Shown: positions 9,998 through 46,923 of the stretch, piece after piece
Layout: every line of letters begins with the position of its first letter
How positions within the stretch are numbered: position 1 is the stretch's first letter
Origin: Propionibacteriaceae bacterium
GTDB lineage: Bacteria; Actinomycetota; Actinomycetes; Propionibacteriales; Propionibacteriaceae
DNA: 64,000 nucleotides
Assembly: GCA_031271975.1 (NCBI GenBank)
Contig: JAISUR010000006.1
Coordinates: forward strand, 1-64,000
Direction of reading: 5' to 3'
Notes under the pieces: model-generated
Seen by the model: only the letters and a program-made list of their open reading frames with translations
Told to the model about the DNA's origin: nothing
Databases searched by the model: none
Program-made: the position numbers and the translations under genes

Positions 9998-10119
9998 CGT
10001 CATCCCGGACAACCTCACCCCGTCATGCCGGACTCGTTCCGGCATCTTGGGACAAAGTCCCATGCACCCCGCAGGGGTGCCCCTGCGGGGCACACGGACT
10101 ACGTCCGAGATCCCGGAAC
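9998..10119. repeat. Dispersed intergenic palindromic repeat, full copy
   Basis: This part of the 411-base gap before the LuxR gene holds the full module series of the dispersed repeat: CGTCATCCCGGAC, CGTCATGCCGGACTCGTTCC with GGCAT (a palindrome), TTGGGACAAAGTCCCATGC, a CCCGCAGGGG / CCCCTGCGGGG inverted pair, CACACGGACTACGTCCGAGA and ATCCCGGAACA. It runs straight into the 21-base tandem repeat. No coding signal is visible from 9,943 to 10,353. Confidence 0.8.
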
Positions 10120-10217
10120 AAGTCCGGGATGACGGGGAACGGGTCCGGGATGACGGGGAACGGGTCCGGGATGACGGGGAACGGGTCCGGGATGACGGGG
10201 AACGGGTCCGGGATGAC
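10120..10217. repeat. 21-bp tandem repeat, about 4.7 units
   Basis: The unit GGGTCCGGGATGACGGGGAA plus C is repeated at 10141, 10162 and 10183 without change, with a first variant unit at 10120 (AAG for GGG) and a partial unit at 10204-10217. The unit contains the TCCGGGATGACG end of the dispersed repeat, so it seems to have grown from that element. The 21-base period keeps a reading frame open, but this is an artefact of the period and not a gene. Confidence 0.9.
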
Positions 10218-10353: not shown

Positions 10354-12831
10354 ATGCGCGACACCGTTATCGGGTACTTGCGAGAGGGAATCTCGGTCAA
10401 CTTGGTGGGGCTGCCTGGCTCCGGGCGCTCCACCTTGGCCAGGGCCGTGCGAACGCGGCTTGGTGAGCTCGGCAACACTGTGTTCCAGGTGAACGCGGTC
10501 GCCGACTTGAAGGAACGGGCGCTCGCCGCCTTGGCCACTTCGGGGATAGAAATCCCCGCCGGTGCGGGCATGGTTGCCGGCGCGGTTAACGCCTTGACCC
10601 GCGTCCTGCCTGGCCCCAGTGCGACGCTGCTGGTCGACGACGCTGACGATCTCGACCAGTTGTCGTTGGGCGCGATCAGCGCCGCCCATGCCCGCACCGG
10701 TTTCACCGTCCTCTTCGTGACGCGCCGCGCGGGGCCGCAGCGTACTTTCTCGGCGATCCAACCCAGTGTGCGCGTCCACGTCGGGCCGCTCCCGTTCGAC
10801 CAGTTGCACATGCTCATCCGGGAGTTGCTGCCCGAAGGCGCGCAGGCGCAAACGGTGGCCCGGATCGCCACCATGACAGGTGGCCTGCCCGGACCCGCGC
10901 ACGGCTTGATCGAGGTGTGCCGCCGCAACGAACGCCTGGTGCTGACCCGCGACGGCTGGAGCTTCGGGCCACGCATGTGGTGCCCAGAATTGTCGCCGGT
11001 GGTCGAGAATCTGCTGGCCGACTTGGACGCCGGCCAGTTGGACGCGCTGCTGCTGTTGGCGATTTCGGGCACGTCGACGATCGGGCGCGCCAACCAGTTG
11101 GTAACGCCTGACCGCATCGCGCAACTGGACGCCGCCGGGCTGCTACAGGTGATTTCCACGGCCAACGGCCAGGTGTTGGGCATCTTCCCGCCCCTGGTCA
11201 CGGAATACTTGCGGCACGAATCCAAGCCCACCGCACTGCTCGCCGCGCGTGAATCAAACGCGTCCCATGACCCCAAGGCGGTGCTCGCCACTGAAGGTCT
11301 GGGCGCAAGCCCCACGGCTCTGGACCCGGGGCAGGCGGCGGTGTTGTCCGGCTATCTCACCGGCTTGTGGCAGACCGAGGTCGCCGTGGCCAGGGCCGCT
11401 TGGGAGGCGAAACCGAACCCCACCGCGGCCATCCGCTTGCTCGCCGCTTTGCACGCCGCGGGTGCGCCATCCAGCGAAGCCGCCCAGGTGCTGCGCAACA
11501 CGTCAGCCGCCCGCAGCCCCAGACAGCAGGCGCTCTTGCTGGTTTGGGATGCCATCTACCGGGCGGAGTATTCCGGCCTGCCGAAGGCCCTGGCCAAGTT
11601 GGCGTCGGGGCGGGTGCGGCTGCCGCAGTGCGAGGCGCTGTTGCAGGCCGCCGAAGCCCACCTGCGCTTCACGAACGGCGAGGTGCCGCAACTGCCGTTG
11701 GCGGGGGCCGCCGGCGAGGATCGGCTGGGCGAGGACCTGGCGCGATCTGTCGAAGCCGAGATCCTGCTCGCCCGCGGCATGACGCTTGACGCCGGGGAAA
11801 TCTTGGCCCAGCACCATCCCGCCGACCCGGTCTTCACGGCCCACGCGGACACCGAACGGGCTTTGGCGCAAGTGCTGCACGGTGAGATCGACGCGGGCTT
11901 GGAGTTGGCCTGTTCCCGGCTGGCCAACACCAAGTCCGCACTGGATCCCGGAGTCTTCCAGTGCTTCGGCTACGTGATCACGCTGGGTTTGGCGTTGCAG
12001 GGCCGACTCACCGAGTTGAACGCCTTCGCGGGCACGTTGCTCACACTCACCCGGACCGGAACGCTTTACAGGGACTATTGGCTCGGGGTGCTGGGTTTGA
12101 CGGCGGTAGCCGCCCGCTGGCGGCGGGAGACGGACTTTGCCAACGCGCTGGCCAACCAGTTGCGGTGCCAGCGGCCGCGCAGCGGGCCGTTCCCAGGCAT
12201 GAGTTCGCACACGCTTGCCCAGTTGGTGCTCGATCCTGCTGCGAACGTTTGGGGCGCTGTCACCGCCGCCCTCGACAAGGGCTACGTCGCCGCTGCCGTG
12301 GTCACAGCCGCCGCGGCCGTCGAACGCCGCCCGGACCAGGTGGCGGTGGGACGTTTGCAGAAGGTCCTGAAACACGTCCAGTCGCCCATGCTGCGGGCCA
12401 TCGGCGAGTATGCGGTGACCACGGCCAACGGCGACTTGGACCGGCTGGACCGGGTCATCGACCGGCTGCGCGACACCGGTGCGATCGTCCACGCCGTGCG
12501 GGCCAGTGTGCAACTCGCGCTGGCGCTGCGCCGCAAAGGGCAGCGGGCGATGGCTGTGAGTTCCGCCGACGCCGGCTGGGCGATGATGCGCGAGACCGGA
12601 GCCCAGTGCGAGGCGCTGTTTGCCCCACTGGTGGCCGACATCGACCTTTCGTCGCGAGAACGGGAGATCTGTGCCTGCACGAACGAGGGCATGTCCACAT
12701 CCCAGATCGCCGCCCTCTACGAACTGAGTGTGCGCACCGTGGAGAACCACGTCTCCAACATGTACCGCAAGATCGGCGTCTCCAGCCGCTCCCGGCTGCG
12801 TGCGGTGACGACCACCTGGCTGGCCCCCTGA
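10354..12831 (+). CDS. Large LuxR-family ATPase-type transcriptional regulator (paralogue 1)
   Basis: An 825-residue regulator with an N-terminal AAA/STAND-like ATPase core, a long helical middle and a C-terminal LuxR helix-turn-helix (about residues 765-822: SSREREICACTNEGMSTSQI, then SVRTVENHVSNMYRKIG). The P-loop at residues 19-27 reads GLPGSGRST, with Arg where Lys is normal; Walker B LLVDDAD is at 92-98. ATG 10354 follows GGAGGGGGG. A paralogue at 20,979-23,513 has the same layout and the same Arg. It sits directly upstream of, and co-oriented with, the SipW-type operon, which it probably controls. The signal it senses is unknown; the helical middle may be a TPR-like or MalT-like scaffold. 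Confidence 0.88.
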   Translation: MRDTVIGYLREGISVNLVGLPGSGRSTLARAVRTRLGELGNTVFQVNAVADLKERALAALATSGIEIPAGAGMVAGAVNALTRVLPGPSATLLVDDADDLDQLSLGAISAAHARTGFTVLFVTRRAGPQRTFSAIQPSVRVHVGPLPFDQLHMLIRELLPEGAQAQTVARIATMTGGLPGPAHGLIEVCRRNERLVLTRDGWSFGPRMWCPELSPVVENLLADLDAGQLDALLLLAISGTSTIGRANQLVTPDRIAQLDAAGLLQVISTANGQVLGIFPPLVTEYLRHESKPTALLAARESNASHDPKAVLATEGLGASPTALDPGQAAVLSGYLTGLWQTEVAVARAAWEAKPNPTAAIRLLAALHAAGAPSSEAAQVLRNTSAARSPRQQALLLVWDAIYRAEYSGLPKALAKLASGRVRLPQCEALLQAAEAHLRFTNGEVPQLPLAGAAGEDRLGEDLARSVEAEILLARGMTLDAGEILAQHHPADPVFTAHADTERALAQVLHGEIDAGLELACSRLANTKSALDPGVFQCFGYVITLGLALQGRLTELNAFAGTLLTLTRTGTLYRDYWLGVLGLTAVAARWRRETDFANALANQLRCQRPRSGPFPGMSSHTLAQLVLDPAANVWGAVTAALDKGYVAAAVVTAAAAVERRPDQVAVGRLQKVLKHVQSPMLRAIGEYAVTTANGDLDRLDRVIDRLRDTGAIVHAVRASVQLALALRRKGQRAMAVSSADAGWAMMRETGAQCEALFAPLVADIDLSSREREICACTNEGMSTSQIAALYELSVRTVENHVSNMYRKIGVSSRSRLRAVTTTWLAP

Positions 12832-12978: not shown

Positions 12979-13653
12979 ATGGAAAACACACACCTCGTCA
13001 TCCCCGCCAGGGGTGGCTCGAAGCGCCGCAGGGCGATCATCGCTTTCGGCTCGCTGCTCGGCGTCGGGGCGCTGCTGACCACAGCCGCATTCACCGACGT
13101 CGCCTACCTCAACCTGAACGGCAATAGCGCCTTCGGCGGCGGCGGGACCTCGTACAACATTCAAGTCGTCAAGACCGATCCCACCACGGGCGCCCAGATC
13201 GCCAACCAGTGGCAGGAAGCCGATGACCCGGCGGGCGTCCCGTTGAAGATCGACGGCTCGGACACGCTGTTTCCCGGCTCGGCCGACATCAGCGTGGACA
13301 TCCCCGTGCGCAACGCCTCGCCGAAGCTGAAGTCGGGCCTGACGCTTTCGCTGGCGCAGCTTCCGGACGTGCCCGGCACGCGGGAGACCGATCCCAACTT
13401 CCGCTCCAGCCTGCGTTTCGACGTGAGCATGCCGGCCACGCACGGCTCCGCCGCGACAAACCACACCAACAAGACCTTCGCGGAGGTCAACGCGCTGGCT
13501 CTGGGCAACTTGGACGCCGGCGAAGTCTCGAAGGTCACGCTGAAGATCCGCCTGCTTGATCAGGCGACGTCGGGTGCGCCCTATACCGATGACTCCCTGC
13601 AAGGAAAAGCCGCCTACTTGCAGGCTGTGTTCAACGGTACGTCGATCAACTGA
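12979..13653 (+). CDS. SipW-type alternate-signal exported protein, probable major subunit
   Basis: A 224-residue exported protein with a long basic N terminus (GGSKRRRAI), a hydrophobic core (LLGVGALLTTAAF) and then TD, the A-x-F-T-D type signal end seen in TasA/camelysin-like proteins cleaved by SipW peptidases. The mature part is beta-rich, with SADISVDIPVRNASPKLKSG and LDAGEVSKVTLKIRLL resembling the jelly-roll of such fibre proteins. ATG 12979 follows GAAGGG. It is the first gene of the operon and is set off from the rest by a perfect hairpin (13661-13692), which fits higher output of a structural subunit. No Cys is present. Assignment to a fibre is by analogy. Confidence 0.72.
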   Translation: MENTHLVIPARGGSKRRRAIIAFGSLLGVGALLTTAAFTDVAYLNLNGNSAFGGGGTSYNIQVVKTDPTTGAQIANQWQEADDPAGVPLKIDGSDTLFPGSADISVDIPVRNASPKLKSGLTLSLAQLPDVPGTRETDPNFRSSLRFDVSMPATHGSAATNHTNKTFAEVNALALGNLDAGEVSKVTLKIRLLDQATSGAPYTDDSLQGKAAYLQAVFNGTSIN

Positions 13654-13660
13654 TCAATAC

Positions 13661-13692
13661 GTGTGGGAGGCCGGATCTCCGGCCTCCCACAC
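13661..13692 (+). terminator. Perfect 14-bp hairpin after the first subunit gene (attenuator or mRNA stabiliser)
   Basis: GTGTGGGAGGCCGG, loop ATCT, then CCGGCCTCCCACAC form a perfect 14-bp stem starting 8 bases after the first subunit gene's stop. No T-run follows. The next gene starts 38 bases later on the same strand with no good promoter between. It may end most transcripts after the first gene or protect that message's 3' end. Confidence 0.8.
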
Positions 13693-13730
13693 ATCAAACA
13701 CCCGACAAAGAACCTCACCAAGGAGAACAC

Positions 13731-14339
13731 ATGCACGCGCGTTTCGTCCGGCTGATCGCGGCCTGGATGCTGCTATTGGCGGCATCAGCGCTGCTCACGG
13801 ACGCCGCCGTCGTGGGTTCGCAGACGATCCAGGTGCACGGCAACGGCGTCCGGTTTTCAATCGAGACGGCCGCTGGCACCCGAGCCGACTGGCAGCCCGG
13901 CCCGGCCGATTGGAAGCCGAGTTCGCAGCGGGTGACCATCAAGCTCTGTGACGAACCCCAATATCCACTCGGCCCCGGCCAGCAGGTGTCGGTGCGCGTC
14001 GCTGCCCGAACCACCGCGGCGGTGCCCGCCGCCTTGATCGTCGAGGCCCGCGATCCCGACCCGCTCGGCCCAGCGCTTGATCCGGCCACCGGTACGTACC
14101 TGGAGCTTTTCGACCAATTACACGTCACCGTCTCCGAAGCCGGGCAGACATTCTTCGATGGCCCTGCCACCGCGCTCGTCGGCGTCGACTTGGGGGAGTT
14201 GGCACCTCGGCCGCAGGCCGATTCGCCCGCGCACGGCCGTCTCTTTGACCTGACGGTGAGCGTGCCGGAGAGCGTCGACAACCGCTGGCAGGGGGCGGCC
14301 ACCGGTTTCCAAGTCTTGCTGAGAGGGGTATCCAAGTGA
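13731..14339 (+). CDS. Exported protein of the SipW-type operon, minor subunit candidate
   Basis: A 202-residue exported protein. The start ATG 13731 follows CAAGGAGAA. A hydrophobic signal (LIAAWMLLLAASALLTDAAV) again ends in an L-T-D step before beta-rich sequence, in line with the alternate signals of its neighbours. The body contains QRVTIKLCDEPQYPLGPGQQ and SVRVAARTTAAVPAALIVEA, a beta-sandwich-like pattern of alternating hydrophobic residues. Its stop overlaps the GTG start of the next gene, so translation is coupled. No named family is recognised beyond the operon context. Confidence 0.65.
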   Translation: MHARFVRLIAAWMLLLAASALLTDAAVVGSQTIQVHGNGVRFSIETAAGTRADWQPGPADWKPSSQRVTIKLCDEPQYPLGPGQQVSVRVAARTTAAVPAALIVEARDPDPLGPALDPATGTYLELFDQLHVTVSEAGQTFFDGPATALVGVDLGELAPRPQADSPAHGRLFDLTVSVPESVDNRWQGAATGFQVLLRGVSK

Positions 14340-14902
14340 TCCGCCAAGATGTCCGCACTCCCATGGCGGTCCTCGGCATGGGCGCGTTGCTCGCCGTCGC
14401 CGTCACCGCCGGCGCGTTCACCGACCGGTTGGAGGTGGTCCTCGGCGATGGCGACCGCCTGGGTGCGAGCTACAACCTCGCGTTGGTGCGTCCCGGCGGC
14501 GACCTGTACGAAGCAAACCCCATCCCCGAACGCTTCAACCGCGCGGGCACTATCGTGCCGGTCTGGGGGCAGGGGCCCTATCCCGAGCCGGTGATGGAAT
14601 TCAAGCTGATTACCACCACGAAGGCGGTCGGCTTGGTCCACATCCGACCGGAGGACGACAATCCCGCGCCGAGCCAACATGACCCATTTCACTACACGCT
14701 ATTCACCGTGCGCATCGACGGGCAGGCGTTCGCCGACCACGTGACCGCCAACCAACTCGCCGCGATGCCCATCACCGACTGGGAACAGGGCGTGGCCAAA
14801 GCGGTCGAAGTGCAGTTGTCGCTGCAGCCCGGAATCAGTGATCCGAACGTTCTCGGGCGGGCGCTCTACTTCGCACTGCACATCGAGGGGAGGACATCGT
14901 GA
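14336..14902 (+). CDS. SipW-type alternate-signal exported protein, minor subunit candidate
   Basis: A 188-residue exported protein starting at GTG 14336, which overlaps the previous stop. Its signal, VLGMGALLAVAVTAGAFTD, has the same A-F-T-D end as the first subunit and is followed by RLEVVLGDGDRLGASYNLAL, close in layout to the first subunit's TDVAYLNLNGNSAF...SYNIQVV. The body is beta-rich and lacks Cys. It overlaps the next gene by 4 bases at GTGA. It is most likely a minor or alternative subunit of the same surface structure; this is inferred from signal type and operon membership. Confidence 0.68.
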   Translation: MIRQDVRTPMAVLGMGALLAVAVTAGAFTDRLEVVLGDGDRLGASYNLALVRPGGDLYEANPIPERFNRAGTIVPVWGQGPYPEPVMEFKLITTTKAVGLVHIRPEDDNPAPSQHDPFHYTLFTVRIDGQAFADHVTANQLAAMPITDWEQGVAKAVEVQLSLQPGISDPNVLGRALYFALHIEGRTS

Positions 14903-15450
14903 GGGTATTCTGCTCAGCCGCCTTGGTGGCATTCCTGGTTTGGGGATCAGCCTTGGGTGCGTGGGGAAACACCGACACCGCTGCCCGCGTGGTTATCGAC
15001 GCCCCTTATCCCGGCCACGAAAGCACCTTCGAACTGCACGCCGAACTGCCCGTCGGCGCCGACGTGAGCGTGGTCCTGGACCAAGCCATCGGGCCGCACT
15101 GGGAGGGGCCCTACCCGCCGCAGATATCGCTGGCCACGCCAGCGGGAATCGTCGTCGCCAACGGCACGGCCGGCGAATTGCTGGGCAAGCCGGCGCCGGT
15201 GGGCAAATCCAGCGGCGCGGTCACCTTGCGCGGCGCGTTGCAACTGCCCTACGAGGCCGGCGACGAACTCCAAGGCCAATCTCTGGAGCTGACCTTCAGG
15301 CTGGTCGCTGAGCAGAAGTCGCCGGGCGGCCCCGGGGTCCACTCCGGGGGTTTCCGGGCTGAGTCGGCGGTCGGCTGGGCGCTGCTGGGGATTTCGGTCG
15401 CCGGGCTGGTGGCGCTGCTGATCTTGAAACTGCGGAAGGACAAGCCATGA
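14899..15450 (+). CDS. Exported protein with C-terminal membrane anchor
   Basis: A 183-residue protein with an N-terminal signal (FCSAALVAFLVWGSALGAWG) and, unlike its neighbours, a C-terminal transmembrane helix near residues 155-176 (VGWALLGISVAGLVALLIL) followed by a basic tail KLRKDKP. The mature domain between is beta-rich (ESTFELHAELPVGADVSVVL) and would face outward. This topology suits an anchor or base protein that holds the appendage in the membrane. GTG 14899 overlaps the upstream stop and its own stop overlaps the next ATG. No family is recognised by motif. Confidence 0.68.
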   Translation: MRVFCSAALVAFLVWGSALGAWGNTDTAARVVIDAPYPGHESTFELHAELPVGADVSVVLDQAIGPHWEGPYPPQISLATPAGIVVANGTAGELLGKPAPVGKSSGAVTLRGALQLPYEAGDELQGQSLELTFRLVAEQKSPGGPGVHSGGFRAESAVGWALLGISVAGLVALLILKLRKDKP

Positions 15451-16064
15451 GTGTTCCCAGACGCTGGGCGCTGCTCGCGGCCGCATTGGCGTTGGCCTAC
15501 ATCCCGGGCTCAACCGCCGCCTACAGCGACCGGGCGCACTTCAACGTGGACACCGCAACGCTGTCGAGCTTCGACCCCTTCGAATTGGTCGTCGTCGACG
15601 CCGGGGTGGCCCATCGCGCCGACCCGGTGCGGCTTTCCGTGGCGGACGGGGACTTGCTACTGCCCGGCCACACCGTGACCAAGACGCTGACGGTCGCGAA
15701 CAACAATCCGGTAATCGCGGCCGCCGTCGAATTTCGCGTGCTGGCCGTCGATATCAGCGGCAGCCAGCCGATCTCCGACTACCTGCGGTTCAGCGTCGCC
15801 GACAGCTCTGGCGCCACCATCTTGGGCGACCCCGGCAACCCGGCGAATGGGGCGTCCAAAGGCGCGGTCGGCCGTATCGGAGTCCTGGACCACCGCGGCG
15901 ATCCCCGCCTGGCCGACGGCGATCCGTGGACGCCCGGCCCGTACGACTCTTGGGAAGAGCTGACCGTCACCGTCCATCTGCTCAACCACGGCAGTCTCAA
16001 CAACCGCGGCAATGGCTGGGCGCGGGTCGCCATCCAATTTGACGCGACTTCGGTGGACATATGA
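15447..16064 (+). CDS. SipW-type alternate-signal exported protein
   Basis: A 205-residue exported protein with signal WALLAAALALAYIPGSTAAY followed by SD, matching the A-x-[FY]-[TS]-D end of the other signals in this operon. DGDLLLPGHTVTKTLTVANN followed by NPVIAAAVEFRVLAVD is the TasA/camelysin-like beta-strand pattern (a PG-x-T/S-x-x-x-x-x-x-x-x-N step is common there). The C-terminal part has EELTVTVHLLNHGSLNNRGN. The ATG overlaps the upstream stop, and its stop overlaps the signal peptidase start, so the peptidase is translated directly after it. It is probably another subunit, with a role that cannot be separated from the others by sequence. Confidence 0.7.
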   Translation: MSVPRRWALLAAALALAYIPGSTAAYSDRAHFNVDTATLSSFDPFELVVVDAGVAHRADPVRLSVADGDLLLPGHTVTKTLTVANNNPVIAAAVEFRVLAVDISGSQPISDYLRFSVADSSGATILGDPGNPANGASKGAVGRIGVLDHRGDPRLADGDPWTPGPYDSWEELTVTVHLLNHGSLNNRGNGWARVAIQFDATSVDI

Positions 16065-16567
16065 ACGTGGCGCGTTGGCGGCGCGGGTTGCGTTTCGCCC
16101 AGCGGTGGCTGCTGAACATGGCCGCCGCGTTGGGTGCGCTGTGCCTGTTGGGCTTCCTGGTTTGCGTCGCCTTCGGGCTGCGGCCAGCCGTCGTGATCTC
16201 CGGATCGATGGAGCCGGCTTATCCAGTGGGTTCGGTGACGTTCGCGAAGACCGTGCCGGTGTCCGAGATCCGCGTCGGCGACGTCGTCACACTGCCACGC
16301 AACGACGGAAACGGCCTTGTCACCCACCGGGTCATCAAGATCGAGCGCGGCCTGCGCACCGACCGCGCCCTGGTGTTGCAAGGCGACGCCAACCGCGAGC
16401 CCGATTTGCTGCCCTACGAGGTGGCGCAGGCCGGGCGGGTCGTCGCCGTGATCCCGCTGGCCGGATACCTCGTGCAGGCTGTCCAGGCCAATTTCTTCCT
16501 CGCCGTCGCGGTGTTGGTTTCGATCACCCTCTTGGCGGCCATACCGATAAAGGAGACACATGATTAA
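16061..16567 (+). CDS. sipW: SipW-like ER-type signal peptidase I
   Basis: A 168-residue signal peptidase with one N-terminal membrane helix, the catalytic Ser49 in ISGSMEP and, in the place of the usual bacterial Lys, His89 in LVTHRVI. The Ser/His pair marks the ER-type (SipW) class. The Box E-like GDANREPD follows, and a second membrane helix lies near residues 140-160 (FFLAVAVLVSITLLAAIPI). SipW enzymes process fibre proteins such as TasA rather than general secretory proteins, and here the gene sits inside an operon of alternate-signal proteins, which should be its clients. Start ATG 16061 overlaps the previous stop; its own end overlaps the propeller gene by 8 bases. Confidence 0.88.
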   Translation: MNVARWRRGLRFAQRWLLNMAAALGALCLLGFLVCVAFGLRPAVVISGSMEPAYPVGSVTFAKTVPVSEIRVGDVVTLPRNDGNGLVTHRVIKIERGLRTDRALVLQGDANREPDLLPYEVAQAGRVVAVIPLAGYLVQAVQANFFLAVAVLVSITLLAAIPIKETHD

Positions 16568-17954
16568 GCGCATCCTCTGCCTGGCCACGGCACTCGCCGC
16601 CCTGGTGGGCGCCACCCATGCCGCCACGTATTGGGATTTGGTGATGATCACCGCCGTGTACTCGACGCTGGGTCCGAACGCTACCGGTTGGGGCCCGGTC
16701 ACTTCCCATTTGCCCAACACGGCCATGGCCATCTCGGACGCCGGCTCGCTCATGGTGTGGGGCCTGCGCGCGCACGGCCTGCCTGGCAATGGGCAGGAGG
16801 TCGTCCCGGCGAAGGATCCGCCCACCCAGATTTGGCTGCCAAACGACAAGCGTTCGGCGGCTGACCGGCGCCGAGTGGTGAAAGTCGCCGGAGTGGGCAT
16901 CGACAACAACACCACCGACAACCAGCATGCCGGCGTGGCGGCGCTGTCCGACGACGGGTACGTCTACACGTGGGGCGGCCGGAACACCAACCATATGATG
17001 GGCCGCGAGACAACGGCTATCAACAGCCAGTGGTGGGTGCCGGGCCGAGTCGCAATCGCGGGGAAAGTGGTCGATCTGGTCTCGTCCGCGGGCGTATTCA
17101 TGGCGCTGACCGAAAACGGCGACCTCTACACGTGGGGTTGGGCCCAAGGCTACGGCGCAGCCGGCCAAAGTGGCACCGACCTGGACTACTCTTCCTACGA
17201 ACCGGAGAAGATCCTCGACGGCGTGCATTCGATCCACGCCGGCCTTTGGAATGGCTGGGCGGTCCGCGGCAACTATTCGAAATCAGACAACTCGACTGGC
17301 GTGTTTTGGTGGGGCCGCGCCGACCGCGGGGCAGCCGGGGATCCGTCCGGGGATGCCAAGTTTGCCACGCGCGGCGTGCCGACGCGGTCGAAAACCCTCT
17401 CGAAGTTCGCCACCTCTGGATGCGACACCCCAGGCGTGGTCGCCGCCTCGAATCGGGACACTTGCACCATCCAGCAGCTGACCGGCCATGCCTACGGCTC
17501 GCAATTGCGGCTGGTGGACGGCTCGGTCTACACCTGGGGCGACCAAGCCCATTTCGGCACCGGGCGCACCGGCGACGCAACCGCGCCCGAGCAGTTGGAC
17601 GTGCTCGCAAGGAATGTGCAATCGGCTCGCGACTACGTCTTTCTGGAAGGTGTCGACGGCTGGGCGTACCTCTACGGCTGGTACGGGACTTCGACCGGTC
17701 CGGACCCGGCTACCGGCGCGGCTGCAACCGCGGGCATCCGCAGGCCGACCCGTTTCAAGGCTCTCGGACGCGACTGGGTCGCCGCCGGCTTGCACGGCAA
17801 CTCCGGCCACGTCCGCAGAACCGACGGCAAGTGGGTGAGCTGGGGCGGCTCGGTGGCCGCGCCGCCCGCCAACAACACCTATTCAGTAGTGCCTCATGCC
17901 GCCACTACCGCACCGGCCCCGCTGACCGTCTGGTCCACGCCGGGCATCGCTTGA
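16560..17954 (+). CDS. Secreted RCC1-like seven-bladed beta-propeller protein
   Basis: A 464-residue exported protein closing the operon; ATG 16560 follows AAAGGAGA and overlaps sipW. A short signal (ILCLATALAALVGATHAATY, then WD) precedes repeats of the RCC1/BLIP-II type. Seven blade cores are visible: LMVWG near residue 64, VYTWG near 135, LYTWG near 189, FWWG near 248, VYTWG near 322, YLYGW near 370 and WVSWG near 425, each with preceding D-G/N-G turns. Two Cys (SGCD and DTCT) lie close enough to pair. Seven blades would close a full propeller. A likely role is a tip adhesin, ligand-binding module or inhibitor displayed by the appendage; no substrate can be inferred. Confidence 0.78.
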   Translation: MIKRILCLATALAALVGATHAATYWDLVMITAVYSTLGPNATGWGPVTSHLPNTAMAISDAGSLMVWGLRAHGLPGNGQEVVPAKDPPTQIWLPNDKRSAADRRRVVKVAGVGIDNNTTDNQHAGVAALSDDGYVYTWGGRNTNHMMGRETTAINSQWWVPGRVAIAGKVVDLVSSAGVFMALTENGDLYTWGWAQGYGAAGQSGTDLDYSSYEPEKILDGVHSIHAGLWNGWAVRGNYSKSDNSTGVFWWGRADRGAAGDPSGDAKFATRGVPTRSKTLSKFATSGCDTPGVVAASNRDTCTIQQLTGHAYGSQLRLVDGSVYTWGDQAHFGTGRTGDATAPEQLDVLARNVQSARDYVFLEGVDGWAYLYGWYGTSTGPDPATGAAATAGIRRPTRFKALGRDWVAAGLHGNSGHVRRTDGKWVSWGGSVAAPPANNTYSVVPHAATTAPAPLTVWSTPGIA

Positions 17955-18050: not shown

Positions 18051-18863
18051 GTGGGAAGTGTGGAGGCCCATAAGAAACCCCGGCACCCGCTGCTGTGGGT
18101 GCTTCAAGGCGTGCTCGCGGTGATGCTGGGATGCACGGGATGGATGTTGGTGCCCAGTTGGCTCGCCACGCCCATGAACTACGTGCGGGCCGACTACACC
18201 CCGCCGCCTTCCCCCACGCCCACACCGACGCCCACGCCAACTCCCACGCCGACGCCGACCGAGCCGACCAGTTGGGAGGTGGCCAGCCTGTCCAAAGACG
18301 TGGCCCGCTACGACAAGCCAGGCGGCAAGAAAGTTGGCACGGTCAAGGCGAAATGGCGCACATACCAGTCGAACCTGCTGATCCTGGAGAAATCCGAAGG
18401 CTACCTGCTGGTCCGCCTCGCGCCGCGCCCCAACGGCGACACCGGCTGGATCAAGGAATCCGAAGTCGGCGAGATCTATACGACGCCCTGGCGCATCCTA
18501 ATCGACACCAAGAAGTACCGGTTGAAGTTGTACAAGAACGGCGAAGTCGTCCTGGACGTCCCAGTCGGCGTGGGGAAGAAAAGCACCCGGACGCCGACCG
18601 GCAACTACTTCGTCACCCAGTTTGAGAAGCCGCCGAGCGCTGGCTACGGCGCGTTCGTCATCAGCACGTCGGCGCACTCGGAAGACATCGAAAGCTGGAA
18701 GGGCTCCGGCGACGCGACCACCGCCATCCACGGCCCCGTCGGCTCGGACGCCAAGATCGGCACGAAAGGCGCGGCCATCTCGAACGGCTGTGTCCGCATG
18801 CACAAAGCCGACTTGAAGAAACTCAAGGACGTGTTGCCGGGCAGCCCGGTGGACATCATTTGA
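18051..18863 (+). CDS. L,D-transpeptidase (YkuD family), membrane-anchored
   Basis: A 270-residue cell-wall enzyme. After an N-terminal membrane helix (LLWVLQGVLAVMLGCTGW) comes a (PT)n linker of about 20 residues, an SH3-like stretch (KVGTVKAKWRTY, GDTGWIKESEVG) and the YkuD domain with IHGP and the catalytic AISNGCVRMH. Such enzymes make 3-3 cross-links or attach proteins to peptidoglycan. GTG 18051 is used; a second in-frame GTG at 18060 is possible. The gene lies 96 bases after the propeller gene on the same strand, so it may be co-expressed and could help fix the appendage in the wall, although that is inference. Confidence 0.9.
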   Translation: MGSVEAHKKPRHPLLWVLQGVLAVMLGCTGWMLVPSWLATPMNYVRADYTPPPSPTPTPTPTPTPTPTPTEPTSWEVASLSKDVARYDKPGGKKVGTVKAKWRTYQSNLLILEKSEGYLLVRLAPRPNGDTGWIKESEVGEIYTTPWRILIDTKKYRLKLYKNGEVVLDVPVGVGKKSTRTPTGNYFVTQFEKPPSAGYGAFVISTSAHSEDIESWKGSGDATTAIHGPVGSDAKIGTKGAAISNGCVRMHKADLKKLKDVLPGSPVDII

Positions 18864-18932
18864 ACCCCACAAAGTGTCCTCGCTGCGCTGCGGTGCTTTG
18901 CGGGGACCCCTTGGTTGCTGTCGAACCCCACC

Positions 18933-19164
18933 GCGTCATCCTGGCGTCCCCAACCCCGTCATCCCGGCGTCCCCAACCCCGTCATCCCGGACTTGTTCCG
19001 GGATCTTGGGACGAAGTCCCATGCGCCCCGCAGGGGTGCCCTAACGGGCACGCGGACTGCGTCCGAGATGCCGGAACGAGTCCGGCATGACGATGCGGCT
19101 CGCAGGGGTGCCCTGTCGGGCGCGTGGACTTCGTCCGAGATGCCGGAACGAGTCCGGTATGACG
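18933..19164. repeat. Dispersed intergenic palindromic repeat, longest copy with internal duplication
   Basis: The 309-base gap between the L,D-transpeptidase and the convergent permease gene is almost filled by this repeat. CGTCATCCCGG occurs at three spots with about 24-base spacing, followed by the GGACTTGTTCCGGGAT palindrome, TTGGGACGAAGTCCCATGCG, CCCCGCAGGGGTGCCCT, and then two copies of the GGACT(G/T)CGTCCGAGATGCC + GGAACGAGTCCGG(C/T)ATGACG half. It is not coding. Confidence 0.85.
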
Positions 19165-19172
19165 GTGCGCCG

Positions 19173-20850: not shown

Positions 20851-20946
20851 GCGGCCGGAATAAGTCCGGCGCGGGGTGTGGACCGGACTTCGTCCGAGAT
20901 CCCGGAACAAGTCCGGGATGACGTGGTGAGGTAAAGGATGACGTGG
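20851..20946. repeat. Dispersed intergenic palindromic repeat, partial copy
   Basis: The 150-base gap after the small coiled-coil gene carries GGCCGGAATAAGTCCGGC, GGACTTCGTCCGAGATCCC, GGAACAAGTCCGGGATGACG and a further GGATGACGTGG, i.e. the right half of the dispersed repeat. It lies between convergent genes. Confidence 0.8.
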
Positions 20947-20978: not shown

Positions 20979-23513
20979 CTACTTGCCCGCGGGCCGCAGC
21001 CAGGTGTTGATGGCTTCGACCAGGGCCTCCTTGCCGACCAGGCCCACCTTGCGGGCGACGTTGTGCAGATGCGTCTCCACTGTGCGGACGCTCATGTCCA
21101 AGATGGATGCGGCTTCGGCGTTGACCATGCCCGTCGACAACAGACCCAGCACCTCGTATTCGCGGGCGGACAGGCCCACCTCTTCCCGCAGCAGCGCAAA
21201 GAAGCCGGCCCGCTCGTAACCGGATACCTTCGAAATGTCCCAAGCTTCGGCGGCCTGCGCGGCGGCCTCCGCCACCTGGCCCTGGCGGCGCAGCAGCAAC
21301 GCTCGCAGCACGGCGGCCCGGATTGCGAAGTGCATCGCGCCGGACTTCTGGAACTGGGCGATGAGCTTCGCGAGCGCGTCCAAGTCTTGCGAATTGGCTG
21401 CGAGGATGTACTGCGCCAAGCTGACCAGCATCGGGCTCTCGATGTCGGGCAGGGTCTTGGAAATCAGCGCACTCACCTTGTCCGACGACGAATAGTCGAC
21501 GGCCTCCAGCGAGATGAACAGGCCGCTGGCGACGTAGCCCGTCTTCATGCGGCGCTCCGCGACCTCCCACAAGTCCGGGCCCGGATTCGTACTCGTCGTC
21601 GACCAGCGCATCATGGCTTCGACGGCCCACGGAACCATGCCCGGGAACGGGCCCGGCTTGGTGGCCAGCGGCAGCGTGCGCGAGGCAAGGGCCCGGGCGT
21701 ATGCCGGGCGGCCTTGCCACAGCGCCATCAGCGCGCCCAAGGAGAGCACGCCGGAGTTGGCCGTGTTCTGGAACGCGGCCGATGGGGTGGTAGACAAGAT
21801 CGACTCGAGGACATCGCCGGCCTCTTGTAGCCGCCCGGCCAGCACCATGCCGAGCGCGGCCGCATATCCGGCCGATTGGATTTCGCCCACCTGCATGCGT
21901 TGCCGCGCTGCGGCCAGCATGGTGAGCGCCTTTTGAATGCCGTTTTCCAGATCGCCGGCCATGACAGTCGACAGGGCTTCCCAAGAGTTGCGTTCGCCCT
22001 GGAGCGTGGGAGTCATCGGCTGGTAGTCGCGCAGCAAATTGCGCGCCGTTGTCGTCTTGCCCAGCGCGATCATCCGCTCGATGGTCACGCCGTTCAGGAA
22101 ATCGGCGCCGTTGGGATCGTCGTCCGGAGTGGCCGGGGCGAGCATGGCTTTGGTGGGTTGCTGGTCAGAGTTGAAACAGATGTGCGCCTGGCCGGCCCGC
22201 AGCAGCGCATCAAAATGTGGCATTTGCTTGCGGTAGCGCTCCAAGTCTTGCACGGCCGCGTCCACGTCTCCGGTCTGGGAGGCATTCCATTGCGCGGCCC
22301 ACACCACGAACAGGGCTCCCGGCAGGTCTTCGCCCACGACGGCCGTGTTGGAGATGACCCGGCTGACTTCGACGGGCGGCGACCACGTGTTGACCATAGC
22401 CTGCACCAGCGCGGTGGCGTTGGCCGGCGTCGGATCCTGCACCCAGGCCTGGCGGCGCTGCTCGACGAGCGTGACGGACTGCTGCTCCACCTGGTGCGAG
22501 ATGATGGAAACATCCGAACTGGGGGCGTGCCGCAGGGATGGCCAAGGCTGCGACGGGCGGAAATCGAGGGCGCGGGAGCGGCCCAACGGGGAACCTTCGT
22601 GGGACAGATAGTCGGACAGCAGCGGTGGGAATATGCCGGCGACGGCGTTGGAGCCATATTCGACGTAGTGGGCCAGGCCGAGGGCGAAAAGGTCACGCAG
22701 CACGTTGTGGCCGAGCAGGGCTTCGGCGTCCTTGACGGGCAGCGGTCCCGCGCTGGCCAGGGCCGTCGCCCCCTCGTAGGCGAGCGAATCGATGCCGGCC
22801 AGATACGGCTCGACGGCCGAAGTCAGGTACTCCGACCACAGCTCGCCGGGGATGACCCACAGGCCGACGTCGTTGCGGACGATCTGCTTGGTCTCTTTGC
22901 CGACGATCAGCATCGCGCGCGCCAAGCCGTACAGCCCGCCGGAACGCATGGCGACACGGGAAAGCGCCATTGGCTCCATGGGGCCGCCGAGGATCTCGAC
23001 GGCGAGATCGTGCAGGCGGCTGAGTTCGAGATTCGTGACCCGCAACTGGACGGCCGGGGCCAAGCCGACCATCAGCGAATCAGCGGGGACGAGTTGGTGC
23101 GGGCGGCTGCTGGTGACCGCGACCAGGCGGTTTTCGCGGTGCGCGGCCTGGATGGCACCTACCGACGCCGCATCGAGGTCGTCGGCGTCGTCGCAGATGA
23201 GCACTGGCGAGCGCCGTCCGGCGAAACGGGTGATGCCGGCCACCACTTCCGCCAACGTGCGGCGGGCCAACTCTTCGCCCAAGCTCGTGTGCACGAACGC
23301 GGCGAAGGGCTCATTCTTGAGGGCCGAATTGCCCCGCATCATCAGGACGCTGCTGCCGTCGTCGTCCAGCCAATCGGCCAACTCGCGCAGTATTTGGGAA
23401 CGTCCAGAACGCCGGGGGCCAACCAAGTGGACGCTGACCCCTTGCCGGAGGAAGTTGACTATTTGGTTGATCTCCCAACCAAACACCACCCCACCCATGT
23501 CGATATTACGCAT
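20979..23513 (-). CDS. Large LuxR-family ATPase-type transcriptional regulator (paralogue 2)
   Basis: An 844-residue paralogue of the 10,354-12,831 regulator. Shared features are the N-terminal LRQGVSVHLVG lead-in, a P-loop with Arg instead of Lys (GPRRSGRSQ, residues 32-40), Walker B ICDDADD near 106-112, a long helical middle, and a C-terminal LuxR HTH (LSAREYEVLGLLSTGMVNAE, then SVRTVETHLHNVARKVG). Start ATG 23513 is used; ATG 23498 is an alternative. It faces inward toward the accessory block from the right side, as paralogue 1 borders it from the left. It probably answers a related signal or counteracts paralogue 1. The gene is preceded by a 296-base gap. Confidence 0.87.
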   Translation of the reverse strand: MRNIDMGGVVFGWEINQIVNFLRQGVSVHLVGPRRSGRSQILRELADWLDDDGSSVLMMRGNSALKNEPFAAFVHTSLGEELARRTLAEVVAGITRFAGRRSPVLICDDADDLDAASVGAIQAAHRENRLVAVTSSRPHQLVPADSLMVGLAPAVQLRVTNLELSRLHDLAVEILGGPMEPMALSRVAMRSGGLYGLARAMLIVGKETKQIVRNDVGLWVIPGELWSEYLTSAVEPYLAGIDSLAYEGATALASAGPLPVKDAEALLGHNVLRDLFALGLAHYVEYGSNAVAGIFPPLLSDYLSHEGSPLGRSRALDFRPSQPWPSLRHAPSSDVSIISHQVEQQSVTLVEQRRQAWVQDPTPANATALVQAMVNTWSPPVEVSRVISNTAVVGEDLPGALFVVWAAQWNASQTGDVDAAVQDLERYRKQMPHFDALLRAGQAHICFNSDQQPTKAMLAPATPDDDPNGADFLNGVTIERMIALGKTTTARNLLRDYQPMTPTLQGERNSWEALSTVMAGDLENGIQKALTMLAAARQRMQVGEIQSAGYAAALGMVLAGRLQEAGDVLESILSTTPSAAFQNTANSGVLSLGALMALWQGRPAYARALASRTLPLATKPGPFPGMVPWAVEAMMRWSTTSTNPGPDLWEVAERRMKTGYVASGLFISLEAVDYSSSDKVSALISKTLPDIESPMLVSLAQYILAANSQDLDALAKLIAQFQKSGAMHFAIRAAVLRALLLRRQGQVAEAAAQAAEAWDISKVSGYERAGFFALLREEVGLSAREYEVLGLLSTGMVNAEAASILDMSVRTVETHLHNVARKVGLVGKEALVEAINTWLRPAGK

Positions 23514-28130: not shown

Positions 28131-31100
28131 ATGCACACGCGAGCTTTCTATGCATTTCTGCGTTCTCTGATTGCCGTACTCGTCGCCGGGCTGGTCGCAA
28201 CGATGATGCCCGCGGTGGCGAGCGCCGAAGAGACGCCCGAGCCGGAGCCGACTCCAAGCGCCGCGGCCACCGAGGAGCCGGTAGTTCCTGACGAGCCGGA
28301 GCCGCAGCCCGTGGAGAGCCCTGCCCTGGAAGCGCCCGGTGTGGTGGGTACCGCGGCGGGCTGGACCAGCGTCACCAACGACCCGTCCTTCGACACCGCC
28401 TACCTGTACAACGCCGTGGTCACCACCTGGGCGGCCCTGAAGGAGGCGCTGGATGCGGTGGGCACCTACGAAGCGAACAAGCCCTACGTGATCCTCATCG
28501 GTTCCGACATCACCTTCTCCGCCGCCTACGCCATCAGCGCCAGCAGGAACATCGTGCTGCGTAAGACCACCGCCACCACGGTGAACGCCACGACGCACGC
28601 GGGCGAGCAGGCCTGGCAATACACCAGTGAATACACGAATCTCGATGCCGAATCGCCCGACCTCTACGACGAGGTGGCGGATTTCAATCTGAAGGTGGCG
28701 AGTTCCTCCGTGGCGAACCACTTCACAGTCTCGGGGACGCCGGTCTCGCTCACTTTGGAGAACATCACCCTGCGCGGGCGGGTGCCGGACAGCGCCGACT
28801 ACGCTACCGAAGGCGTCAGCACCTATGTGAGCGACTACACCAGCTATGGGGGTGGCGGCATCGACGTGTCGGCCAGCGTGACGATGTCGTTCGCCGGCAA
28901 CATCACCCGGGTTTTTGGCCAGCACAGCACCCGGGACGGCGCGTTCCGGGGAACCACCAGCGACAAGATCACTTTCCGGGGCGGCGTCTACAGCGACAAC
29001 GTGACGAATGGGGTGGGCGCGTTCTTCAGCCAGCGCGGCGGCAGCACCACCACCACTGTCACCGGCAACAACATCATTGAAGGCAACTACGCCACCTCGG
29101 AGGGCGGCGCCATGGCCTGGATCGGCTTAGCCACCACCGTGACCATTACCGGCAATGCCCTCTTCCGCGAGAACGCCAGTATGGCTGGCGGCGGCGCCAT
29201 CGACGTACACAACGAGGGCACGCTCACGCTGGGCCAGTCCAGCGGGGCCAGCAACATCGTGTTCTCCGGGAACCGGGCGGCTTTCGATCCCGCCTTCACC
29301 TCCGCCAACTCCTACCCGGGCAACGGTGGCGCGATCCTGTCAGCGGGGGCGACCGCAGGCTACACGTTCACCGTGAACGTGTACCCCGGCGTGCGCTTCG
29401 AGAACAATGTGGCAGCGCGCGGTGGCGGCGCCATCGCGCTGGGTAACGGCAAGTTGAGCACCGGCGTGACTCCCATCTTGAATCTCTACGGCGGCACGTT
29501 CACCGGCAACCAGGCGCTGGGCACCAACCGCGACGCACCCTCGGCGTTCATCGGCTACGCCATCGGCGCGGGCGGCGCGGTCTTCTCGTATTTCCCGAAG
29601 TACATCAACATCCCGGCCTCCAGCCCGGTGACGTTCTCCGGCAACTCCGGCACGTTCTCGGCGTTCATCGACAATGCCAAGCTGCAGGACCTGACGAACG
29701 ACTTGCACGCGCCCGGGTCGTACTACGACGGCGACAACTACATTTCGCACATCCAGAACCCGGACGTGCCGACGTCGGTGGTGAACGCGCACGGGCCGGA
29801 GGGCTACGACTACTTCAACCTGTACAACAACTACGACATCGGCGCCCTGAACAACCTGACGATGGGCCTGTTCACTCCGATCAAGGTGACGGTATGGCCC
29901 GGCGACGGTTCCGGCGGCCAGGTGTCGGAGGGCGACAACGTCTACATCGACCCGTTGAACACCGGCGTCAAGCAGGCCGAACTCGGTTCGACGCTGACGT
30001 TCACGCCTCAGGCGGCGAGCGGCTGGTATCTGAAGTCGTTCGAGTTGGTGACCACGCCGGCGCTGTCGGCGGACGAGGCGACCTCCGCCTGGACGAATGG
30101 CTCCGGTGTGTATTCGCTGGTGGTGCCCGCTTCGGACACCGAGTTGGTGGCTACGTTCCACCGCAAGGCGGTGTTGACGGCGCCTGCGGTGAAGTTCCCG
30201 GTGAATTATTCGGCGGGCGGGTATTCGCCGCCCGGCGCGCTAGCGGTGACGTTGCGGAATGTGACGCCGGCGGGCACCTATTCTGATTCGGCTACGTCGG
30301 TGACGGGCACTTTGGTGGACGGGGACGCGGCGTTGTTCACGTTGTCGGCGCCTCCGGCTTTGATTACGCCGGGAGGTGTGAATGCGACTTGGCGGGTGGA
30401 GCCGGCGGATAGTGGTTTTTCCACGGCGCGCACTTACGCGACCACGTTGCAGGTGACGTACACCAACGGTGCTGGGCAGGAGACGTTGAACATCCCGGTG
30501 TCGATGGAGATTGCGGACGCCGGTGATCTGTATCTGGATGGGACGGATTTTGATTTTGGCACTTCGGTCTTGAGCGCGGGCGCGTATGTGCCTGCGGTTT
30601 CGGCGCAGACGGTGACGGTCACCAGCGTCGGCGGGAATATCGACGCCACTGAGGCCACCGTGGCTTTGGCGAACCAGGCCAAGGATGGCGAGTCGGGTGA
30701 GTGGTTCACCCTGACCGGTGGCAGCTTGGGCACGGTGTCCAGTGGCGCTTCGAAGACGTCCACGCAGGTGGTACCCAAGGCCGCGCTGGAGCCGGGTGAT
30801 TACACGGCCGATGTGGTGTTGAGCTACAAGGTGAACGGCAATCCGCAGACGAAGACGGCTGCGAAGGCGGTGCATTTCAAGGTGGTGACGCCAGCGGCGG
30901 TGTCGATCGCCTCTGACATCGCGTTTGCCACGAAGAACGTGGGTTACTCCGCCGACGCGCTGTCGTATGCTCCGGTGGCGTTGGTCAACTCTGGCGGGAC
31001 GACCGCCCAAGTCATGAAGATCGAGTTGACGGGGGCCTACGCCGCCAGCTTCCGGATTGCCGGTGCGGCTACGGGGGATGGCACTACGGCGGTTGCGACT

Positions 31101-34100
31101 GTTCCGGCGAATGGGGCGAACTCGAACGCGTGGAGCCTGATCCCGAAAGCGGATCTGCCCGCGGGCACGCACACCGCGCAGGTGCAGGTGACGTACCGCA
31201 CCGGTGCCAACGATGAGACGAAGACGGCCACCGCGAATGTGTCGTTCACGGTGGTCGGCCCGCCGCACATTGTCACCCAGCCAGTCGGCGCCGCGGTGTT
31301 CACCGATGATCCGGTCACGTTGACCGTCGCCGCGGCTAACGACGCTGGCACCACTGACGGCCTGACGTACCAGTGGTATTCCAATTCGTCCGATTCCAAC
31401 AGTGGCGGCGTGAGTGTCGGCGATATCGGCAAACAGGCCAGCTATAGCCCGCCGACCACCCTGGCGGGCACCGCCTACTACTACTGCGTGATCACCAACC
31501 AGGCCGGAAGCGTCCTGTCCGGCGCCGTACCGGTGACGGTGACGGCCCGGACCTACGCCACGACACTGTCGCCGACCTCGAAGACGTTCCCGGATGCGGC
31601 CTACGGCTACGGCGAGCAGGCTGCCCAAGCATTCACCTTGACGAACACCGGCAACCAGCCACTGACCGGCGTTACTGCGACGCTGACCAGCGCCGATTTC
31701 GAGTTTGTTGGGACGGCCGGGGCCAGCGTTGATTTGGGCACTGTGGCTCCAGGCGCCACGGCGACGGTGTCGGTGCGGCCCAAGACTGGCTTGCCGGCGT
31801 CGGATGTCGTGCACTCAGACGTGTTGCGGTTGTCTTACACCGGGATCAACGAGACTTCGCAGACCGCAAACCTGTATTTCACGGTCGGTAAGGCCACCCC
31901 ACAGGTCACCTGGCCTTCGGCGCCCGCGGTGACGTACGGCGACAAGCTGCCCGGGCTGGTGGGCGGAAACGACACCGGTGGTGGTTCGTTCGCGTGGGTG
32001 GACGATCAGGTTGTGCCGACGGTTTCCAACGGCGGCTATCAGGTGGTGTTGACTCCGGGTGATACGGCGAACTACGACTATGCGGGTGTGGAGTTGACGC
32101 ACACTGTGGTGGTGCAGGTCGCGAAGCGGCAGTTGGTTGGTGTTTGGGCGGCGTTTGCGAAGTCGTATGACGGTTCGACTGTCGCGAGTGCGGTTTTCAG
32201 TTCGGATAATCGGGTTGGTGATGATGTTGTGGTGGTGTCGTTTACGGCGTTGTTTGGCAGTGCCGGTGTGGGTGTTGGGAAACCGGTGTCGGTTTCTGGT
32301 GTGACGGTTGATAATCCGAATTACTTGCCGCCTGTGGCGCCGGTGGGTTTGACGGCGGATATCAATAAGGCGCCGGCGGGTGGTCCGGTGGAGGTGTTGG
32401 TGGATGCGGTGGAGAACACGGCGGCGACTTATCGGGTGGATTTGGCGGGGTTGTTGCCGAGTGTGGTTCCGCCGCGGCAGTTGGGTGAGGTGTCGTATGA
32501 CACTAGGGAGCCCAGCGATTTGGATCATTTGCTTTCGGCTGCGCCCGAGATTGTTTTGGGGGAGGCTGGTGTCGGCGATGATGTGCTGTTGGTGCCGGTG
32601 AACGCGGTGCCGTTCAGCAGTTCGCCGCTGCCGGCGATGTTCCCGGTGGCGATCCATTCGGCCAATTTTGCTGATGTGGAGGTCACGGTGACGGTTTCGG
32701 TGACGGCGAAGACTCCGGTGTCAGTGTCGGGTGTGTCTGTCGGGTCGAAGACGTTCGATGGTACGGCGAACGGGTTTAAGGGCACGCTTGTTGCGAGCCC
32801 AGTGGAGGCGTTGGGTGTGTTGCAGGTGTCGTACACGGGCCGGAATGGGACGGTGTATGGCCCGAGCCCGGACGCGCCGGTGAATGCGGGTGACTATGTG
32901 TTGTCGATTGCGGTTCCGGCGGACAATTTGGAGTACAAGGGTGGCGCGTCGTGGAATTTTTCGATCGCGAAGCGGCTGGTGACGGCCACTCCGAAGGATG
33001 TGGTGTTGCGCTATGGCGATGTGTTGCCGGTGTTGACCGGGGCGGATGTGGTTTATGACGGTTTTGTGAGTCCGGACAGTCCAGATACGGTGTTCACCTC
33101 GTTGGGTGTGCCGCAGTTCTTGGTTGCTGACACGGGTGTGCCGGGCCAGTACATGTTGCCTATGACCGAATCAGTTTTGGCTCAGGCGGCTGCTGTGAAT
33201 TATGCGGTCAGTTATGGTGTTGGCACGTTGACGATCAATGCGGTAGCGCCGGCGGCGCCGACGGGTTTGTTGGCTGTTCCGGGTGATCGTGAGGTTATGT
33301 TGTCGTGGGCCAGGCCTGATGATGGTGGTAGCCCGATTACGGGGTTCGAGTACCTGGTGGGCGATGGCGGTTGGATGCCGGTGGCTGGTTCGAACGCGGG
33401 CACTACTTCTTACACGGTTACCGGCTTGCCGAATGGTGTGGCTTACTCGTTTAGGGTGCGGGCGGTTAACAATGTGGGCGAGGGTGCAGCCTCTGGTGTG
33501 GTGTCGGCCATGCCGATGTCGGGTGATGCGTCGTTGGGCACTGTTGGTGGTGTTGTGGTGTCGGTGTCGGCTAATGGGGCTTTGTCCGCGCCGGAGCAGG
33601 TGTTGGTGCAGGTTCCGAACGCGGTTGCTGTGATTGATGCCGGTGTGGTTGCTGGTGCTGTGGGTTCGAGTGTGGCTGTTTTTACTGATTCGGGGTTTAC
33701 CACGCCAGGGTCGGTGGTGTTGGCCGATGTTGCTCCGGCTAGCTACCAGTTGTTTGTGAAAGTGACTGCTCAGAACGGCCGGGAGGCGTTTTATGAGTTG
33801 ACGGTTTCGCGGGCCCGTTCGTCGGTTGCGAAACTGCACAGCGTCGCCGGGGTACAGCCGGAGCTGCAAAGTGACACTGAGGGCACGTTGACGGTCGATA
33901 ATGGCGTGTTTGAAGTCAAGGCGTCTGATTTGTTGGCTGCCAGTGGTGGTAGTGCCCAGTTGATGGATTCGGTGTTCGCGAACGTTGTGGACCGGCAGGT
34001 GTTGTCGGTGACGGTTGGCGATGGCACGGTCACTGATGTGTATGTCCGGGTGACCGCCCAGGACGGCACAACGATGCGTGATTATCATTTGCGGGTGTCG

Positions 34101-45718: not shown

Positions 45719-45820
45719 CATTCCCATGCGCCCCGAAGGGGTGCCCTGTCGGCACACGGACTACTTCCGAGATGCCGGAACAAGTCCGGCATGACGTGGT
45801 GGGGGCTCGGGATGACGTGG
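45719..45820. repeat. Dispersed intergenic palindromic repeat, copy upstream of EEP gene
   Basis: CATGCGCCCCGAAGGGGTGC, CACACGGACTACTTCCGAGATG and CCGGAACAAGTCCGGCATGA followed by CG are the right-hand modules of the dispersed repeat, here between the divergent nadA and EEP genes. GGATGACGTGG repeats again at the end. This is the only copy not at a 3' end, so its role as a terminator cannot be general. Confidence 0.8.
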
Positions 45821-46896: not shown

Positions 46897-46923
46897 GTCA
46901 TCCCGGAACGAGTCCGGGATGAC
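46897..46923. repeat. Dispersed repeat core palindrome
   Basis: GTCATCCCGG-AACGAGT-CCGGGATGAC is a single near-perfect copy of the core palindrome with 10-base arms, between the EEP gene and the convergent 13-gene operon. Its compactness makes it the clearest example of the core stem of the dispersed repeat. Confidence 0.85.

Follow-up and report, generated by a model that had tools for sequence, protein, structure and literature searches.

Fibres of the TasA type are known chiefly from Bacillus, where they serve as simple matrix scaffolds. In the tapA-sipW-tasA operon of B. subtilis and the sipW-tasA/calY genes of B. cereus, an endoplasmic reticulum (ER)-type signal peptidase is dedicated to linked exported substrates (PMC10151520, PMC9674648). 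The strand that follows the SipW cut in B. subtilis TasA (residues 28–38) completes the next subunit, acting as a donor strand (PMC9674648), and fourteen residues of mature TapA (44–57) are alone enough to restore biofilm formation (PMC10151520). Ordinary signal peptidase is inefficient at sites that have an aromatic residue at P2′, TasA itself being cut by SipW (PMC10269814). Here we describe an operon of seven intact same-strand genes at positions 12979–17954 (+) of a stretch of 64,000 nucleotides from a Propionibacteriaceae bacterium (the window), which encodes a SipW-like peptidase together with five small exported proteins and an RCC1 propeller. The likely product of the operon is a heteropolymeric surface fibre of TasA-like type, in which the propeller would be a co-subunit processed by SipW, and the assignment of the fibre to the TasA-like class is well supported. 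The genes, the hairpin between the first two of them and the upstream regulator are as follows.

12979–13653 (+): P1, 224 amino acids (aa), SipW-type signal TTAAFTD, TasA-like subunit, probable major subunit

13661–13692 (+): hairpin of 14 bp in the P1–P2 gap (z −6.8), probably favouring P1 mRNA over the rest

13731–14339 (+): P2, 202 aa, P1 paralogue with a weaker signal, ASALLTD

14336–14902 (+): P3, 188 aa, P1 paralogue, SipW-type signal TAGAFTD

14899–15450 (+): P4, 183 aa, ordinary signal peptide and C-terminal membrane segment, probable base

15447–16064 (+): P5, 205 aa, TasA-like subunit, SipW-type signal TAAYSD

16061–16567 (+): SipW-like ER-type (Ser/His) signal peptidase, 168 aa, TIGR02228 with catalytic residues

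16560–17954 (+): exported seven-bladed RCC1 propeller, 464 aa, PF00415 and PF25390, predicted SipW site HAA/TYWD (slash, cut)

10354–12831 (+): LuxR-family protein with an AAA ATPase domain, directly upstream of P1, probable regulator

The initial annotation, made from the sequence alone, had read six exported proteins and one peptidase on one strand, and the open reading frames lie exactly where it placed them. Its overlaps of 4 to 8 bases after the second gene measure 4, 4, 4, 4 and 8 bases, while P1 and P2 are separated by a gap of 77 bases. A codon-usage gene caller returns the identical seven genes, and the proteins are 32–63% identical to their counterparts in two other species, so the frames are not due to chance. 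At the level of sequence, the operon is established, as are the paralogy of its small proteins, the type of the peptidase, the family of the propeller and the recurrence of the association; the SipW-type sites are predicted from the sequence. The YkuD L,D-transpeptidase gene that follows (18051–18863) was considered as an eighth member and rejected, as it is set off by a 96-base gap and is not beside RCC1 in three other genomes (G017, G013, G053). A phage or viral origin was also rejected: the SipW pattern has no viral relative and viral RCC1 matches are distant, the P1 alignment being too variable to serve in a viral scan.

The operon shares with its Bacillus counterparts an ER-type peptidase linked to its exported substrates, a TasA fold (here modelled), predicted SipW-type cut sites and a minor partner that adjoins sipW with overlapping genes (PMC10151520, PMC9674648). 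Unlike the Bacillus operons, which have one or two subunit genes, it has five genes of subunit type, a membrane-anchored P4 and a propeller as SipW substrate, and its proteins match no TasA or camelysin model. The system appears to work like TasA fibres, yet by sequence it falls outside the camelysin/TasA families. The literature we found on TasA-like systems comprises Bacillus, archaeal and review papers, and none of the papers searched names both SipW and RCC1, many subscription papers lying outside that scope. As far as this search reached, no multi-subunit operon of TasA-like type whose SipW substrates include a propeller has been described, and the earlier statement that no described system joins these parts holds.

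The peptidase scores 76.8 bits against TIGR02228, the archaeal/ER-type signal peptidase model (curated cut-off 51.85). Ser49, His89 and Asp109/Asp115 are invariant, with the GSMEP and VTHR motifs kept across eight orthologues; a Ser/His instead of a Ser/Lys dyad, formed by invariant residues, makes the enzyme ER-type, as had been proposed. Against the Bacillus SipW equivalog NF046067 it reaches 48 bits where the cut-off is 190, and is therefore better called SipW-like than SipW proper.

The small exported proteins are, on sequence grounds, a set of paralogues. Profiles of P1, P2, P3 and P5 align end to end by hhalign with probabilities of 96.7–99.0 for the pairs compared (to P1: P2 99.0, P3 98.4, P5 96.7), values raised by inclusion of the signal segment. 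Outside the signal, P4 and P2 have a domain in common (96.9). The hydrophobic signals of P1, P3 and P5 end in A/AFTD, G/AFTD or A/AYSD, with cleavage positions predicted by reading the sequence, whereas that of P2 is a weakened SipW type, A/LLTD, with an aliphatic residue where the others have an aromatic one. P4 orthologues in one species (G011) carry LPFTG at the C-terminal end, ahead of a membrane segment and a basic tail; LPxTG was found in none of the seven window proteins, and no sortase adjoins the operon among the genes called, unlike what a sortase-assembled (LPxTG) pilus would show. The search of profile libraries that the initial annotation had proposed gave a divided answer. The peptidase and the propeller are the only proteins of the operon recognised above cut-offs; P1–P4 match nothing in Pfam or NCBIfam, and P5 falls below the cut-off of TIGR04088 (11.5 bits against 19). 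A P1-like protein of another genus (locus L270) passes that model with 24 bits.

The structure model of P1 supports a TasA jellyroll fold. Its mean predicted local distance difference test (pLDDT) score is 67.7 and its predicted template modelling (TM) score 0.64, most core strands exceed a pLDDT of 80, and the predicted cleavage site is immediately followed by an extended strand. A Foldseek search of the PDB gave two matches with E below 0.001, a self-complemented FimA and the cryo-EM TasA fibre 8aur_A (probability 1.00, E 4e-4, TM-score 0.47); the third was the archaeal bundling pilin 7ueg_A (probability 0.99). As all three are donor-strand pilins, the match appears specific despite the moderate model. 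Absence of a TasA-like fold from every exported protein had been named as grounds for abandoning the fibre; the P1 model instead matches 8aur_A and 7ueg_A. The archaeal bundling pili of Pyrobaculum calidifontis (7ueg), the third-best match, are likewise TasA-like donor-strand fibres, but the present system is bacterial and is a multi-subunit operon with a propeller. With type 1 pili it shares FimA as a fold match, and the proposed donor-strand fibre with a distinct binding tip would parallel their FimH tip; unlike them, it has neither chaperone nor usher, is Gram-positive, and carries a propeller without a pilin domain.

The propeller scores 46.4 bits against PF00415 (cut-off 21.7), also matches PF25390 and has seven x[WY]G blade motifs; its family profile matches the HERC2, UVR8 and RCC1 structures. 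Throughout the propeller family, the aligned sequences follow the pattern A/x-aromatic-x-D, P2′ being aromatic and P4′ Asp without exception (SFTD, AFTD, SYTD, GFTD and AWRD after the predicted cut; TYWD in the window). A signal profile trained on P1, P3 and P5 alone ranks two RCC1 proteins close to the top among 667 N-termini, the training set aside, and one RCC1 orthologue (L090) passes TIGR04088 (19.3 against a cut-off of 19). BLIP-II is a secreted RCC1-fold protein. Like it, the window protein is an exported RCC1-type propeller of actinobacteria, but with a SipW-type signal and linked TasA-like subunits. A propeller evolving fast as an adhesin found no support, given that RCC1 identities within G011 (27–63%) resemble those of P1 (24–78%).

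The association recurs beyond the window. Full-length propellers occur, by profile search, in 8 of the 199 genomes of the bacterial family, in three genera. Within the genus, P1 and the full propeller co-occur in the same 4 of 30 genomes; since these could belong to a single clade, we give the co-occurrence no weight as independent evidence. In another genus (G053, L267) all seven families form a single same-strand run, P1-P2-P3-P4-RCC1-P5-SipW. At least four loci are present in a single species, G011, with the orders P1-P2-P3-P4-SipW-RCC1 (C147), P1-P2-P3-(gap)-RCC1-SipW (C167), P1-P2-P3-P4-RCC1-SipW (C135) and a tandem [P1-SipW-RCC1]x2 whose second copy is cut by the contig end (C150), besides propeller fragments at two contig ends. 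The parts are distributed over contigs in G017 (LuxR-P1-P2-SipW on one, P3-P5-RCC1 on another) and in G013 (LuxR-P1-P2, P4-P5-SipW and P3-RCC1). A further genus has RCC1-RCC1-AgcS-like symporter-P1-SipW, assembled from three loci (L268, L269, L271), and, at L270, the group P3-x-P1-RCC1 with no SipW close by. The initial annotation had named homologues scattered without the peptidase or propeller as the test of its proposal, and this test did not refute it: the families travel together in G053, in G011 and in the 4 of 30 genomes, but their order is not fixed and their parts lie on separate contigs in G017 and G013.

Linkage of SipW to RCC1 is not a general rule. No SipW gene lies near RCC1 hits in 32 actinobacterial loci outside the bacterial family, nor in 23 loci drawn from Bacillota hits. 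The sole exception outside the family is a Bacillota metagenome-assembled genome (L041), in which a SipW gene shares 4 bases with its neighbour, whose 765-aa product combines a SipW-like signal with an N-terminal domain without assignment, two Ig-like domains and seven RCC1 repeats. hhalign did not confirm this N-terminal domain as TasA-like, and we use only the signal and the position. In one Bacillota genome, two RCC1 proteins (L216, 6246–7721; L225, 7030–8535) start with SYSYWAQQ and GSYWANN, resembling SipW-type signals; the fetched flanks of their genes contain no SipW gene.

Other actinobacterial SipW clusters (L003 in the same genome, L093, L097, L098; L012 and L013 in Arthrobacter) likewise combine small SipW-signalled proteins, a SipW and often one large SipW-signalled protein. 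Unlike the propeller, this large partner is about 575–1150 aa and non-RCC1, and the signals are of the TYALW or LAAWTD subtype. The cluster in the same genome (G000:C27, L003, 4973–11796) is a second type, with a 1094-aa protein, three small SipW-signalled proteins, a SipW and a membrane-anchored protein; its layout is near-identical in G017 (L093). In another actinobacterial genome (L155, 5876–14037) a SipW cluster is duplicated in tandem, each unit containing two different SipW-like genes, one of them within a 476–486-aa protein.

We infer strand assembly, the roles of the subunits, and the position and ligand of the propeller along the following lines. P1, P3, P5 and the propeller would be exported by Sec via their SipW-type signal peptides, and the operon's own ER-type peptidase would cut just before x-aromatic-x-Asp, freeing an N-terminal strand. 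In the TasA-like subunits this strand would enter the groove of the next subunit by donor-strand assembly, with P1 as the main subunit, P2, P3 and P5 as minor or adaptor subunits and the membrane-anchored P4 as the base, roles that we regard as plausible. The propeller, bearing the same freed strand, may dock into a subunit groove; as it has no TasA domain or groove of its own, it would most likely sit at the fibre end, as cap or binding tip, although for the tip in particular we would put the chances somewhat below even. More tentatively still, RCC1 propellers in several actinobacterial genera may be SipW-matured, donor-strand-docked tips or caps, non-TasA cargo that joins TasA-like heterofibres solely via the freed strand, with a related single-chain form in Bacillota.

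Several observations weigh against a fibre with a propeller co-subunit. Gene order is variable, and the parts are on separate contigs in G017 and G013. P1–P4 have no TasA or camelysin match in Pfam or NCBIfam, and no profile match to TasA was found in the PDB; the P1 model is moderate (pLDDT 67.7) and was built from seven distant sequences. The window propeller reaches just 3.7 bits with the profile of SipW-type signals, the RCC1 proteins other than the two highly ranked ones being weak too, and the RCC1 structure model has a pLDDT of 31. The weak signal, together with the wide distribution of RCC1 repeats and the chance that the genus's four genomes are one clade, could be taken to mean that the propeller is an unrelated neighbour of the SipW operon and the gene overlap accidental. 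This we find scarcely credible, as the linkage recurs with varied gene orders in two other genera, at several G011 loci and in the Bacillota metagenome-assembled genome.

It is also conceivable, but unlikely, that the TasA-like proteins form a fibre and the propeller is a separate secreted protein, such as a BLIP-II-like inhibitor or binder, using SipW for maturation only. The separation of the propeller from P1 and SipW in G017 and G013 would agree with this, as would the frequency of exported RCC1 proteins without SipW in actinobacteria. A free propeller would not need an assembly strand, yet the propeller keeps its SipW-type site, and it is retained in the minimal three-gene tandem unit. 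Polymerisation itself may be questioned, since a TasA fold by itself is no proof of it and the TM-score is 0.47; five different subunits instead of one abundant one might rather make up a coat on the surface, or a camelysin-like complex built of single TasA-like domains, with the propeller as another wall-associated protein. This is very improbable, as the best fold matches of P1 are all donor-strand pilins, a strand follows the cut site in its model, and the hairpin suggests an excess of P1. The surface fibre first proposed is supported by the P1 fold match and by families that travel together.

In pilus operons, a hairpin after the first gene is linked to an excess of the major subunit. The stem in the P1–P2 gap is perfect, and zero shuffled sequences were equally stable. 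Equally long stems of unrelated sequence stand at the same place in G017 (L084, z −3.4) and in the other genus (L267, z −4.4), whereas in G013 and three G011 loci the gap is short and leaves no room for one. A hairpin after P1 in three genomes is what would be expected if the first gene makes the major subunit. It probably raises P1 mRNA over the downstream genes, and P1 is the probable major subunit. The LuxR-type gene is linked to P1 in G013 and G017 as well, and its position beside P1 in three species of the genus makes it a plausible regulator of the operon; in G053, P1 has a different LuxR-type gene upstream. Near the propeller end, at 20979–23513 (−), the window has a second regulator of the LuxR-type ATPase kind, 57% identical to one (L045, 4889–7429) that directly adjoins RCC1 in G013.

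Elsewhere, the window contains a dispersed repeat of CGGAACAAGTCCGGGATGA type, with 13 copies within 3 mismatches against 0.03 expected (10115–10217, 18926–19171, 20903–20921, 45776–45794, 46904–46922), partly in tandem arrays of 21, 23 and 72 bases. The 2774-aa protein encoded at 28131–36455 is exported and of surface type, and contains fibronectin III as well as bacterial Ig-like domains; within its gene, around 32–34 kb, GC skew (0.32) and AT skew (−0.32) are unusual.

The operon places same-looking chemistry in a multi-subunit setting with a likely binding head, amplified within one genome. It raises the testable question of whether unrelated cargo can be attached to a TasA-like fibre by a freed N-terminal strand alone, in the way that Gram-negative pili dock distinct tips, and it provides a specific hypothesis about exported RCC1 proteins and the numerous SipW clusters of actinobacteria that are still uncharacterised.

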